64,000 bases of DNA from Marinobacter nitratireducens (lineage in GTDB: Bacteria > Pseudomonadota > Gammaproteobacteria > Pseudomonadales > Oleiphilaceae). The DNA is taken from NCBI RefSeq assembly GCF_000708045.1, contig NZ_ANIE01000007.1, positions 310,001 to 374,000 on the forward strand. The letters are read 5' to 3'. Positions 836 through 31,345 of this stretch are shown here, in pieces. Each line of letters begins with the position of its first letter. The first letter of the stretch is position 1. The translations under genes were made by a program, and so were the position numbers. Under the pieces are notes generated by a model. It was given only the letters and a program-made list of their open reading frames with translations. It was not told the origin of the DNA and made no database searches.

Positions 836-908
836 AAAAAAGCCCCGGCTGGGCTACCAGTCGGGGCTTTTCGAGTCCGGTGGCAGCCTGGATATCTGCC
901 GGGCTGCC
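836..908 (-). promoter_or_regulatory. Transcription attenuator of the DAHP synthase gene
   Basis: Read on the minus strand, a first hairpin has arms GGCAGCC (908-902) and GGCTGCC (888-882). It is followed by a strong intrinsic terminator with a 10-bp stem, AAAAGCCCCG (871-862) and CGGGGCTTTT, a 14-nt loop, and a run of six T ending at 836. The terminator lies 33 nt upstream of the DAHP synthase ATG, so it must be read through for expression. AGCCCGGC at 905-898 can pair, with one bulged G, with GCCGGGGCT in the 3' arm of the terminator and is a candidate antiterminator. A CCGGGC near the leader stop codon could in turn mask that segment. The pairings were found by eye, not by energy folding. 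Confidence 0.85.
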
Positions 909-935
909 TTCCTCTATGTTCGGTCGATGAAGAGC

Positions 936-1013
936 TTAGGGGCGGCCCGGGCTGTGGCTAAAATAAAAGCCATAACCAAACCACCAAAAAAACACAGACG
1001 CGACCGCCGCCAT
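936..1013 (-). CDS. Aromatic-rich leader peptide (Phe/Trp/Tyr), 25 aa
   Basis: A small frame starts at ATG 1013 and stops with TAA at 938-936. Its centre reads FFWWFGYGFYF: nine aromatic residues in eleven, made of five Phe, two Trp and two Tyr codons. A GGTGA about seven nt upstream could serve as ribosome binding site. It ends 65 nt before the attenuator terminator and lies in the transcript of the DAHP synthase gene, the layout of classical trp, phe and his leader peptides. Its job would be ribosome stalling when any charged aromatic tRNA is short. It probably has no function as a peptide. A longer frame continues upstream to 1193, but only the segment from this ATG makes regulatory sense. 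Confidence 0.85.
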   Translation of the reverse strand: MAAVASVFFWWFGYGFYFSHSPGRP

Positions 1014-1082
1014 CGGTTTTTCACCGAAAGCTTGCAGAACATTCAATTGACAGGTCGCGTGTGTCGTCTTCATGCTTTTCAA

Positions 1083-1110
1083 TATATACCTGCTGTTTTC
1101 CCGTTGGCAA
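1083..1110 (-). promoter_or_regulatory. Candidate sigma-70 promoter for leader and DAHP synthase
   Basis: On the minus strand, TTGCCA (1110-1105) and TATATA (1088-1083) are 16 nt apart, close to the -35/-10 consensus. This puts the start near 1076, giving about 60 nt of 5' leader before the aromatic-rich leader peptide. No second good candidate was seen between here and the secretin-domain gene that diverges at 1154. Confidence 0.5.
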
Positions 1111-1153: not shown

Positions 1154-1960
1154 ATGCATTCGATTCCAAGAACCGCCGCGACAGCCCGTCCAATATCGCT
1201 TGTTATGGCGCTTGTCCTGCTTGCGGGAACGCTCCTGGCAAGCTCTGATGCGCTCGCCGAAGCCCGGGTCTACGAACTCAAAAACCGCCCGGCCGAGGAC
1301 ATCGCCAACCAGATCAGGACGCTATACCAGAACACGCCAATCACGCTCACCGCCCGGGGAGCCCAGCTTGTGATTCGCGGCGAGCCAGCCTTACTGGATG
1401 AGATCAGCACCCTGATCGACACCATGGATGTCGCACCGACCCAGCTCAGGATCAGTGTGCGTTCCAGCGAAGATATCGGAGGCAAGCAGTCCGGCGCCGG
1501 CGTGAGTGCTTCAAACGACCGCATCGGCGTGTCGGTGGAACGCAAGGTCATCACCACTGGCAACCAACGGGTGCGCTCACTGATTGTCCAGGACGGTCAG
1601 TCGGCTCACATCACCTCAGGCAAGGTTCGAACCCTGCCGTTCGTCGTTCGGGGCGGGCGTAATCCAGCAGCGGTTCTGCAGCAGGTCGAGACCCGCAGTG
1701 GATTTCTGGTCAGCCCCCAGGTTATTTCCGATCGCGCCATCGAACTGAACATCGTGTCATTTGAAGAAGACCCGGCCGCCATGCCTGGCTATGAAACGGA
1801 GGCCCTGATGACCATTCGCCGCGTGGAACCAGGCCAATGGGTGTCGCTTGGCAGCACCTCCACGGAGACCAGGAACCGCGAGTCCGGAATCACGTACAGC
1901 GTTAAGGGAAACCGGCAGGAGAACCGCCGCTTTGAGGTGAAAGTGGAGCTGCTGCCCTGA
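1154..1960 (+). CDS. Secreted protein with a secretin/TonB short N-terminal-type domain
   Basis: A 268-residue protein. Residues 1-35 form a signal peptide (hydrophobic stretch then ALA), so it should be exported. Residues about 38-100 (YELKNRPAEDIANQIRTLYQ, then VIRGEPALLDEISTLIDTMD) match the N1-type fold of secretin subunits, including the usual alternation of a repeat-like helix and a strand. The rest (about 100-268) is beta-rich and resembles the part before a secretin pore, but the protein stops before any pore domain. The ATG has AGGAG five nt upstream. It stands alone, facing a J-protein gene tail to tail at only 4 bp. Specific function unknown; it could be an accessory of type II secretion or type IV pili, but none of those genes are nearby. 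Confidence 0.75.
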   Translation: MHSIPRTAATARPISLVMALVLLAGTLLASSDALAEARVYELKNRPAEDIANQIRTLYQNTPITLTARGAQLVIRGEPALLDEISTLIDTMDVAPTQLRISVRSSEDIGGKQSGAGVSASNDRIGVSVERKVITTGNQRVRSLIVQDGQSAHITSGKVRTLPFVVRGGRNPAAVLQQVETRSGFLVSPQVISDRAIELNIVSFEEDPAAMPGYETEALMTIRRVEPGQWVSLGSTSTETRNRESGITYSVKGNRQENRRFEVKVELLP

Positions 1961-29616: not shown

Positions 29617-29667
29617 CCTCCAAGGACGTTCTCATTGAATACTTCAATTTTTCGGGAGATTCCTGCC

Positions 29668-29748
29668 GTGCAGGGACTGAATCTGACAGCAGCGCGAGGC
29701 ATCCTCACAACCCGCGCAACACGATGGTGGCGATGGCGCACCGGCTGA
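29668..29748 (+). CDS. trpL: trp operon leader peptide
   Basis: A 26-residue frame with a GTG start (GGGAG nine nt upstream); an in-frame TTG at 29635, also with an AGGA in place, would give 37 residues. It contains three Trp codons in RWWRWRTG immediately before TGA. It lies between gph and trpE, upstream of a terminator-like hairpin. This is the layout of Trp attenuation: ribosome stalling at scarce Trp-tRNA favours read-through into trpE. Confidence 0.85.
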   Translation: MQGLNLTAARGILTTRATRWWRWRTG

Positions 29749-29857: not shown

Positions 29858-31345
29858 ATGACACCCGAGCAATTTTCCGAGCTCGCCCAAGCCGGCTATA
29901 ACCGAATCCCCGTCTTCCGCGAAGTACTTGCCGATCTCGACACGCCACTGAGCACCTATCTCAAGCTTGCCAGCGGCCCCTATTCCTACCTGTTCGAATC
30001 CGTGCAGGGCGGTGAGAAATGGGGTCGATACTCGATCATTGGCCTGCCCAGCCGAGAAGTGCTCAAGGTCTATGACCACCGCATCGAAATAAGCCGAAAC
30101 GGCGAGATCGTGGAACAATCCGAGGTGGCAGATCCACTGGCCTTTGTGGACGAGTACCAGGCACGTTTCAATGCGCCGGATCTTCCGGAGCTGCCCCGTT
30201 TCAATGGCGGGCTGGTCGGCTACTTCGGCTACGACACCGTGCGCTACATTGAGAAACGCCTGCGCCCCAGCTGCCCGCCCGACAAGATCGGCACACCCGA
30301 TATCCTGCTGATGGTGTCGGATGAGATCGTTGTCTTCGACAACCTGCGTGGCAAGCTGCACCTGATCGTACACGTAGATCCGGCCGATCGGGGCGCGTTC
30401 GAACAGGCCCAGGCAAGGATCGATGAGCTGGAAGCCAAACTGCACCGGCAGACGGCCAACGCGCCCAGAACCCCGGAACACCTGCGCGGAAAGGTGGTTG
30501 ATGAAAGCGACTTTGTCTCCGGCTTTACCCAGGACAAGTTCGAGGCCGCGGTCGACAAGATCAAGGAGTATGTGCTGGACGGAGACGTGATGCAGACCGT
30601 CATTTCCCAGCGCATGTCCATTCCGTTCGAAGCACCGCCCCTGAACCTCTACCGCTCGCTGCGAGTACTGAATCCGTCGCCTTACATGTACTTCCTGGAC
30701 CTGGAAGACTTCCACATTGTGGGCTCGTCGCCGGAAATTCTGGCCCGGGTCGAGGATGAAGAGGTCACGGTGCGCCCCATCGCCGGCACCCGTAAACGCG
30801 GCGCAACCGATGCTGAAGACAATGCACTGGAGAAGGAGCTGCTGGCCGACCCCAAGGAAATCGCCGAGCACCTGATGCTGATCGATCTGGGCCGAAACGA
30901 TGCCGGCCGGGTCTCGGAAACCGGCACGGTGAAGCTGACCGACAAGATGATCGTGGAGCGCTATTCCCACGTTATGCACATTGTCTCCAATGTGACCGGC
31001 CGCTTGAAAGAAGGCACCAGCTGCCTGGACGTGCTGCGCGCCACGTTGCCTGCCGGCACGCTTAGTGGCGCTCCCAAGATCCGCGCCATGGAAATCATCG
31101 ATGAACTGGAACCGGTCAAGCGCGGCGTCTACGGCGGCGCGGTCGGTTACCTCTCGTTCAACGGCAACATGGACACCGCGATCGCTATTCGTACCGCCGT
31201 CATCAAGGACGACACGCTGCACATCCAGGCCGGTGCCGGTGTGGTGGCCGACTCTGTTCCCCGCCTCGAGTGGAAGGAAACCATGAACAAGGGGCGCGCC
31301 ATTTTCCGGGCCGTCGCCATGACCTATAACGACTACGATCACTGA
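29858..31345 (+). CDS. trpE: Anthranilate synthase component I
   Basis: 495 residues. Converts chorismate to anthranilate with ammonia from TrpG. The N-terminal Trp feedback site is visible ([19 protein letters not shown]). The chorismate-binding catalytic part carries [35 protein letters not shown], the YSHVMHIVS stretch and [19 protein letters not shown]. Preceded by the trp attenuator. An antisense frame of 499 codons covers the same bases and is a shadow. Confidence 0.96.

Follow-up and report, generated by a model that had tools for sequence, protein, structure and literature searches.

Transcription of a type I-alpha DAHP synthase (DAHPS) gene of Marinobacter nitratireducens is very probably governed by a ribosome-mediated leader-peptide attenuator, through which the charging of tRNA-Phe, tRNA-Trp and tRNA-Tyr would together control the gene. 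A leader ORF rich in codons for the three aromatic amino acids, promoter-like boxes, RNA arms with alternative partners and an intrinsic terminator were found upstream of the gene by sequence analysis and computation, and are conserved in the genus and beyond it. The window, that is, the whole stretch of DNA analysed, comprises 64,000 nucleotides (positions 310001–374000 of contig C7) of the 3.89 Mb genome, and positions are those of the window unless a contig is named.

The aromatic-rich leader and its RNA arms

The DAHPS gene lies at positions 1–803 on the minus strand, with its ATG at 803. It comprises 351 amino acids and extends beyond the window start; the complete frame was read in locus L003, and the gene exceeds the cut-offs of NCBIfam TIGR00034 and NF009395. 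Upstream of it, a leader ORF of 45 codons plus stop (936–1073, minus strand; MKTTHATCQLNVLQAFGEKPMAAVASVFFWWFGYGFYFSHSPGRP) contains the control codons FFWWFGYGFYF (960–992, minus strand), in which nine of eleven residues are aromatic: five Phe (all TTT), two Trp and two Tyr (both TAT). The aromatic frame described by an earlier sequence-only reading of this DNA proved to be real, given that no more than seven aromatic residues in eleven arose when this intergenic stretch was dinucleotide-shuffled 1000 times, compared with the nine observed, and that no second site with at least seven in eleven occurred elsewhere in the 64 kb window. The intergenic stretch is common to the predicted leader promoter and a divergent gene (1154–1960, plus strand), whose secretin-like match (GspD, PilQ) is weak and far below threshold.

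A second type I-alpha DAHPS, 51% identical to the leader-bearing one, is located at C3:447670–448659 (L002/L004). Upstream of this second DAHPS, of a second trpE-like gene on C3 and of pheA, a scan of ORFs of 6–70 codons found no aromatic leader, and none of these ORFs had more than four aromatic residues in eleven. The trpE gene of the window (29858–31345, plus strand) is preceded by an ORF (29635–29748, plus strand) that lies 3′ of the end of the preceding gene and ends in RATRWWRWRTG; this ORF is probably a Trp-only type leader of trpE. With such a leader at trpE and a three-aromatic leader at DAHPS, it seems that Trp alone is sensed at the Trp branch and all three amino acids at the pathway entrance. 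The ORF upstream of trpE (MNTSIFREIPAVQGLNLTAARGILTTRATRWWRWRTG) has a TTG start, and a GC-rich stretch and TTTT lie downstream of it.

The leader RNA forms a chain of six arms, in which the pairings 1:2, 3:4 and 5:6 compete with 2:3 and 4:5. Arm 1 (UGGUGGUUUGGUUAUGGCU; 968–986), as defined by the fold without a ribosome, lies within the control codons. Arm 2 (AGCCACAGCCCGGGCCGCC; 941–959) has two possible partners, arm 1 and arm 3 (GGCAGCCCGG; 899–908), and its pairing with the latter is the antiterminator; arm 3 has arm 4 (CCAGGCUGCCACCGG; 877–891) as its other partner, and arm 4 pairs with arm 3 or arm 5. Arms 5 and 6 and the U run constitute the intrinsic terminator (836–871; all arms on the minus strand), which has a stability of −20.6 kcal/mol and six U ending at 836, the DAHPS ATG lying downstream at 803. 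Its pairing is retained in 99.0% of cells across 77 sequences, and the leader RNA as a whole is more stable than its shuffles (z = −4.8). The terminator of the sequence-only reading was thus borne out, and its two competing hairpins have to be extended to the six-arm chain.

In the mechanism that we infer, RNA polymerase would start no more than about one base away from the leader ATG, and a ribosome would load on the leaderless leader ORF and translate it. When all three aminoacyl-tRNAs are plentiful, the ribosome would reach the stop codon and cover arm 2, upon which 3:4 and then 5:6 would form and transcription would terminate before the gene. When any one aminoacyl-tRNA is short, the ribosome would stall in FFWWFGYGFYF and cover arm 1, and arm 2 would pair with arm 3; arm 4, left free by the 2:3 pairing, would pair with arm 5 ahead of the synthesis of arm 6, and read-through into DAHPS would follow. 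If the leader were not translated, 1:2 and then 3:4 and 5:6 would form, again leading to termination. Each of the three amino acids would therefore count, and since a shortage of any one would give read-through, the leader would act as an OR gate that detects shortage where the pathway begins.

This scheme was compared with a folding model in which the sequence is folded in the state before arm 6 exists. For M. nitratireducens, the model gave 2:3 and 4:5 with the ribosome stalled from the first F to Y8, 3:4 with the ribosome from the following Ser codon to the stop, and 1:2 and 3:4 without a ribosome. Among 77 distinct Marinobacter leaders, 3:4 beat 2:3 in 77/77 with the ribosome at the stop codon and in 74/77 without a ribosome. 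In 70/77, each of the three amino acids had one or more codons at which a stall favoured the antiterminator, and in 66/77 more than half of the aromatic codons behaved in this way; a strict switch, with at least 80% of the aromatic codons and both controls right, was obtained in only 29/77. Where the cluster is of the standard form (61 leaders), the strong stall sites were the two codons before WW (50 and 54 leaders), W1 (54), F7 (54) and Y8 (60); W2 (37) and the last F (40) were intermediate, and F3 (17) and Y5 (16) were weak.

The full-length lowest-energy fold retained the terminator in every state tried, and antitermination must therefore be kinetic. A generic shuffle control of all upstream pairing of arm 5 in the M. 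nitratireducens sequence was not significant (56/300; 31/300 in a second form), and was followed by the arm-by-arm duplex test described below. Covariation within the genus was little: the score of the terminated structure was matched by 411 of 500 shuffles, and that of the alternative structure by 1 of 500, but few of the pairs in the latter vary.

Recurrence of the leader in Marinobacter and other families

The DAHPS of the window was used to retrieve 225 candidates, and the 80 best named loci, which were kept, were all Marinobacter, placing the genome in this genus by its relatives. Leaders were anchored on WW together with six aromatic residues in ten, and the sole failure was the truncated locus L048, whose contig starts 25 bases before the gene. 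The leader set therefore comprised 80 sequences, namely, 79 of the 80 named Marinobacter loci and M. nitratireducens. Conservation of the aromatic frame and the terminator, on which the sequence-only reading had staked its claim, was found: the frame was present in 80/80 leaders, the terminator hairpin was called by script in 80/80, and both recurred in other families (terminator hairpin in 27/29 outside leaders). At E ≤ 1e-5, a leader-peptide profile built from 17 peptides had matches in 120 of the 124 Marinobacter genomes, the one in G074 being partial. Two of the four misses (G081 and G087) have a single DAHPS match of paralogue strength, and in the other two (G086 and G092) the DAHPS lies at a contig edge. 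The 124 genomes and the named loci may in part represent the same species.

Phe, Trp and Tyr were all present in each of the 80 Marinobacter leaders. The control codons were TTT for 325 of 358 Phe and TAT for 170 of 178 Tyr, compared with 224/511 and 128/376, respectively, in 35 long ORFs of the window; this bias fits slow decoding, which may aid sensing, and arm pairing is a possible alternative cause. One-codon losses within the cluster (FGYGYF) occurred in 12/80 leaders and gains (WWFFGYG) in 4/80, a tolerance that fits codon counting better than a fixed peptide. Outside the cluster, C8, Q9, N11 and SQSPGRP-like ends are conserved in Marinobacter. The nucleotides of leader codons 8–12 (TGT CAA TTG AAT GTT; 1038–1052, minus strand) are near-invariant among 62 distinct sequences and lie outside all switch arms.

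Beyond the genus, an order-wide DAHPS search matched 61 of 215 genomes at E ≤ 1e-100 and gave 64 places, of which 54 lie outside the genus and 10 within it. Upstream regions were read at 40 outside loci, consisting of 39 of the 54 places and G737, which was found via its leader; the 15 places omitted were six in family f207, four in f197, a single one in each of f218 and f220, two second matches in f4 and one second match in f222. Leaders with all three aromatic amino acids were present at 31 of these 40 loci (30/39 without G737), in five other families (f3, 9/9; f222, 7/7; f4, 9/9; f189, 2/2; f217, 3/3) and one sister genus (f1 g273, 1/1). No leader was counted in the upstream regions read from f207 (0/3), f218 (0/2), f220 (0/2), f197 (0/1) and f223 (0/1). 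The DAHPS at loci lacking a leader are 48–52% identical to the query, like the second DAHPS of M. nitratireducens (51%), and may therefore be the other paralogue. The outside loci are related, so these counts are not independent, and the six families are the better measure.

The outside leaders were chosen as ORFs with at least five aromatic residues in eleven; their richness is thus a product of this choice, unlike the joint occurrence of Phe, Trp and Tyr. All three were found in 29/29 outside leaders, as well as in G737 and in G657, whose leader was missed by the ORF filter and recovered with the model of sRNA P15 (see below). In G561 (L220) and G653 (L214), more distant DAHPS genes are preceded by short ORFs containing WWFTYF and YWGYW, respectively; these ORFs also have five aromatic residues in eleven, were left out of the leader count and could be unrelated leaders. 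A second short ORF, often Tyr-rich and with a conserved WRF (e.g. MNTTYYRYYRNSDWRFSS...), was observed between the terminator and DAHPS in L192, L199, L200 and other f3, f4 and f222 loci, and GWRFISGWRY or GWRFIGGWRY occurs in G671 and L113. This second ORF downstream of the terminator is possibly a second control, perhaps a translational one.

The order of residues in the outside clusters varies (YFFYGYWF, FYFGYWF, YWYWF, FGYYAAYWF), and in G395 and G637 a single Phe is accompanied by two or three Tyr. The arm sequences also differ among families, arm 3 being, for example, GGCAGCCCGG, GGCGCCC or GGCACACC, and the alternative pairs are kept. In the arm-by-arm duplex test of the outside families, 2:3 exceeded shuffles (p < 0.05) in 26/27 leaders and 4:5 in 21/27, and 3:4 reached −8 kcal/mol or lower in 27/27; G613 and G678 were excluded from this test as the script found no qualifying terminator in them. 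The folding model and this cross-family pairing are the two lines of evidence that point to an antiterminator that would be mutually exclusive with the terminator pathway and dependent on ribosome position.

Profile searches on a wider scale were also conducted. When the leader profile was run against 369 genomes of the class at E ≤ 1, matches came from 97 genomes, with M. nitratireducens at E 4.8e-30 and the next best at E 0.0025; the 29 loci made from these matches (L116–L144) contained no DAHPS by tblastn and were taken as chance. Across the order, 39 of 293 genomes had a match at E ≤ 0.1, including 12 Marinobacter, and 4 of 18 outside loci checked adjoin DAHPS. The remaining family spread was established by reading the upstream regions of DAHPS.

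The presence of all three aromatic amino acids in the 80 Marinobacter and 31 outside leaders and the modelled response to each of them in 70/77 leaders support the any-aromatic sensor that the sequence-only reading had proposed. It is unlikely that the attenuator in practice senses one amino acid, most probably Phe, with the Trp and Tyr codons tolerated or kept for the RNA arm. UGGUGG and UAU do lie in arm 1, pair with arm 2 and could persist for that pairing, but the three amino acids also persist in families with another arm 1 and residue order. The Marinobacter core contains more Phe than Tyr codons (358 vs 178), whereas G395 and G637 show the reverse proportion. Stalls on the middle Tyr codon seldom favour the antiterminator in the model (16/61), yet those on Y8 (60/61) and the first Trp (54/61) mostly do. 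The DAHPS leader of Corynebacterium glutamicum, aroR, answers to Phe only, as given in the available part of PMC11802643; its Phe-Tyr-Phe codons, responsive to Phe and not to Tyr, illustrate that the presence of a codon does not prove sensing.

Promoter-like boxes and the start of the leader

The sequence-only reading had placed the translated leader in a 25-codon frame (1013–936, minus strand; MAAVASVFFWWFGYGFYFSHSPGRP), which lies within the longer in-frame ORF. The ATG at 1013 was found in only 13 of 62 distinct aligned sequences, whereas the frame from 1073 is open in 62/62 and the ATG at 1073 shares the reading frame of the aromatic cluster in 80/80. The spacing between this ATG and WW is always a multiple of three; that between the ATG and the cluster is 81, 84, 87 or 90 nt in 79/80 leaders and 129 nt in L101, where the script chose a further upstream in-frame ATG. 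Among the 62 distinct sequences, stops occur in both other frames (62/62 and 34/62) and none in frame 0, and third codon positions are the most variable. The rarity of the ATG at 1013 and the constancy of that at 1073 indicate a leader peptide of 45 residues. Translation from 1013 is consequently very unlikely, even though an SD-like GGTGA lies 7 nt upstream of that ATG in the window.

A predicted −10 box, TATATT (1081–1086, minus strand), ends 7 nt before the leader ATG, and a predicted −35 box, TTGCCA, is located at 1105–1110 (minus strand). A −10-like hexamer, as defined by a permissive pattern, ends 5–7 nt upstream of the leader ATG in 80/80 Marinobacter leaders; TATATT or TATAGT is found at exactly 7 nt in 75/80, and a TTG-initial hexamer lies 15–19 nt from the −10-like box in 77/80. 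Conservation of these boxes at 1110–1081 predicts a transcription start near 1073, in line with the sequence-only reading, which a start downstream of 836 would have contradicted. An SD-like tetramer precedes the leader ATG in only 1/80, and this near absence, together with the −10-like box 5–7 nt before the ATG, suggests that the leader ORF is probably leaderless. The 7-nt spacing also occurs in G671 (sister genus), G718 (f217), and G536 and G497 (f189), and is absent in G525 (f217). The candidate leader ATG is preceded by GGAG, AGGA or GAGG in f3 (9/9), f222 (7/7) and f4 (5/8). From these signals, the leader ORF would be leaderless in Marinobacter, G671, G718, G536 and G497. Leaderless leader ORFs are known from trpL of Sinorhizobium meliloti and from Streptomyces, according to the accessible text of PMC7298713 and PMC8079986, respectively.

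Relation to sRNA P15 and to known leaders

The f3 leaders correspond to Rfam RF00627, ‘Pseudomonas sRNA P15’, in 9/9 loci (96–126 bits, above the gathering score of 70), and the match suggests that f3 is Pseudomonas-like. Scores were 60–95 bits in f222, with 3/7 over the threshold, and 26–47 bits in f4 (0/9). The M. nitratireducens locus scored 25.4 bits (E 0.0055), far below 70, and was the only match in the genome at E ≤ 0.01. A permissive Rfam search of the window gave 17 weak matches, with P15 at the top of the list (25.4 bits, E 0.0024); at the gathering threshold no family was found in the window, including Trp_leader, His_leader and other curated leaders. With strict filters and E ≤ 0.01, RF00627 gave no match in nine other Marinobacter genomes, G671 and G497, so this model is not enough by itself to connect Marinobacter with P15. 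What connects them is a shared position ahead of one kind of gene, a similar core of the peptide and a common set of arms.

In the 26 genomes with an RF00627 match, whose DAHPS upstream regions had already been read, each match lies just upstream of DAHPS, save a few weak opposite-strand matches in the same place, and the matched regions carry an aromatic ORF and antiterminator pairings. We take P15 to be the terminated leader of this DAHPS attenuator. P15 resembles the Marinobacter leader in its place before the same kind of DAHPS, and its model begins at the control codons; it differs in being filed as an sRNA gene and not as a cis-regulatory leader, and in an SD-like sequence before the ATG, which is common there and found in 1/80 in Marinobacter. 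Among the open-access papers listed, none was seen to state that P15 is the leader of a DAHPS attenuator (one locus tag queried was wrong). The enzyme PA2843 is of type II (PMC6435475, available part).

It is highly improbable that the leader is instead a P15-like free trans-acting sRNA with its own terminator, for which the position before DAHPS would be incidental. RF00627 is filed as a gene, and P15 is named among the sRNAs detected by Livny et al. in the accessible part of PMC2375449, a study that itself did not recover P15; moreover, trans action of an attenuator RNA and of its peptide has a precedent in rnTrpL and peTrpL of S. meliloti (PMC7298713, in part). The matches nevertheless lie just upstream of DAHPS with the aromatic ORF and antiterminator pairings described above, and a role in trans could coexist with attenuation. 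An arrest-peptide sensor, in which the nascent peptide would bind a free aromatic amino acid and stall the ribosome as the nascent peptide TnaC does, is likewise highly improbable, for although residues beyond the cluster are conserved in Marinobacter (C8, Q9, N11 and the SQSPGRP-like ends), the C-terminal part encodes arm 2 and the C-termini differ among families (RRA, GVPLADA, QLDHR).

Several elements of the attenuator preferred here have precedents. The his operon leader is a six-arm switch, and in thrL and ilvL one leader senses several end products. The Marinobacter leader resembles these in its six arms (his) and in the number of end products per leader (thrL, ilvL), and differs in its aromatic codons and in the genes that it precedes, with no Rfam family at threshold in the window. 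Closer in function is the aroR leader before aroF of Corynebacterium glutamicum, reportedly described by Neshat in 2014. It attenuates DAHPS through Phe-Tyr-Phe, with Phe but not Tyr effective, in the portions available of PMC11802643 and PMC4046766. Both are cases of leader-peptide attenuation of a DAHPS gene with aromatic codons; however, aroR has only Phe and Tyr codons, responds to Phe alone and belongs to another phylum, and the two were likened by description and not by sequence. The uORFC-13-1 motif before aroF of Acholeplasma, a prediction in the accessible part of PMC8632094, likewise combines an upstream ORF containing at least one Phe with a terminator before a DAHPS gene, but no Trp or Tyr is described for it and it comes from another phylum. 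In S. meliloti, trpL/rnTrpL has a leaderless leader ORF, its terminated RNA exists as an sRNA, and trans action has been reported for both the RNA and the peptide (PMC7298713, in part). The Marinobacter leader would share the first two properties, whereas that of S. meliloti is a Trp leader before trpE(G) with reported trans action.

Among the open-access papers listed and the portions of them consulted, no leader with all three aromatic amino acids and no function of P15 was seen, and the part available of PMC2965389 contained no DAHPS leader. The sequence-only reading had likewise been aware of no three-aromatic example, but relatives had already been listed as sRNA P15, and DAHPS leaders from other organisms had been published. 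Attenuation of DAHPS by a leader and leaders for several end products are therefore known already, and the three-aromatic leader at DAHPS appears to be what is new here.

A broader reading can be put together from these parts, and is doubtful when taken as a whole: an ancient attenuator of six Pseudomonadales families would be a true Phe/Tyr/Trp OR gate at the entrance to the shikimate pathway with P15 as its terminated product, its leader ORF would have become leaderless in Marinobacter and two other families, and the terminated RNA there would be a very small leaderless mRNA, the conserved CQLN N-terminus of which would confer on the RNA or peptide an additional role in trans, as with rnTrpL/peTrpL.

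TyrR and TrpR serve as regulators in E. coli. In the leader described here, one transcript may read three tRNA pools and thereby provide a natural sensor. The tRNAs for U-initial codons share the modification of A37 by MiaA/MiaB; the aromatic codons all begin with U, and the leader may therefore also report on tRNA modification. The families with an SD-led leader and those with an apparently leaderless one would form a pair for studying leaderless initiation in attenuation.
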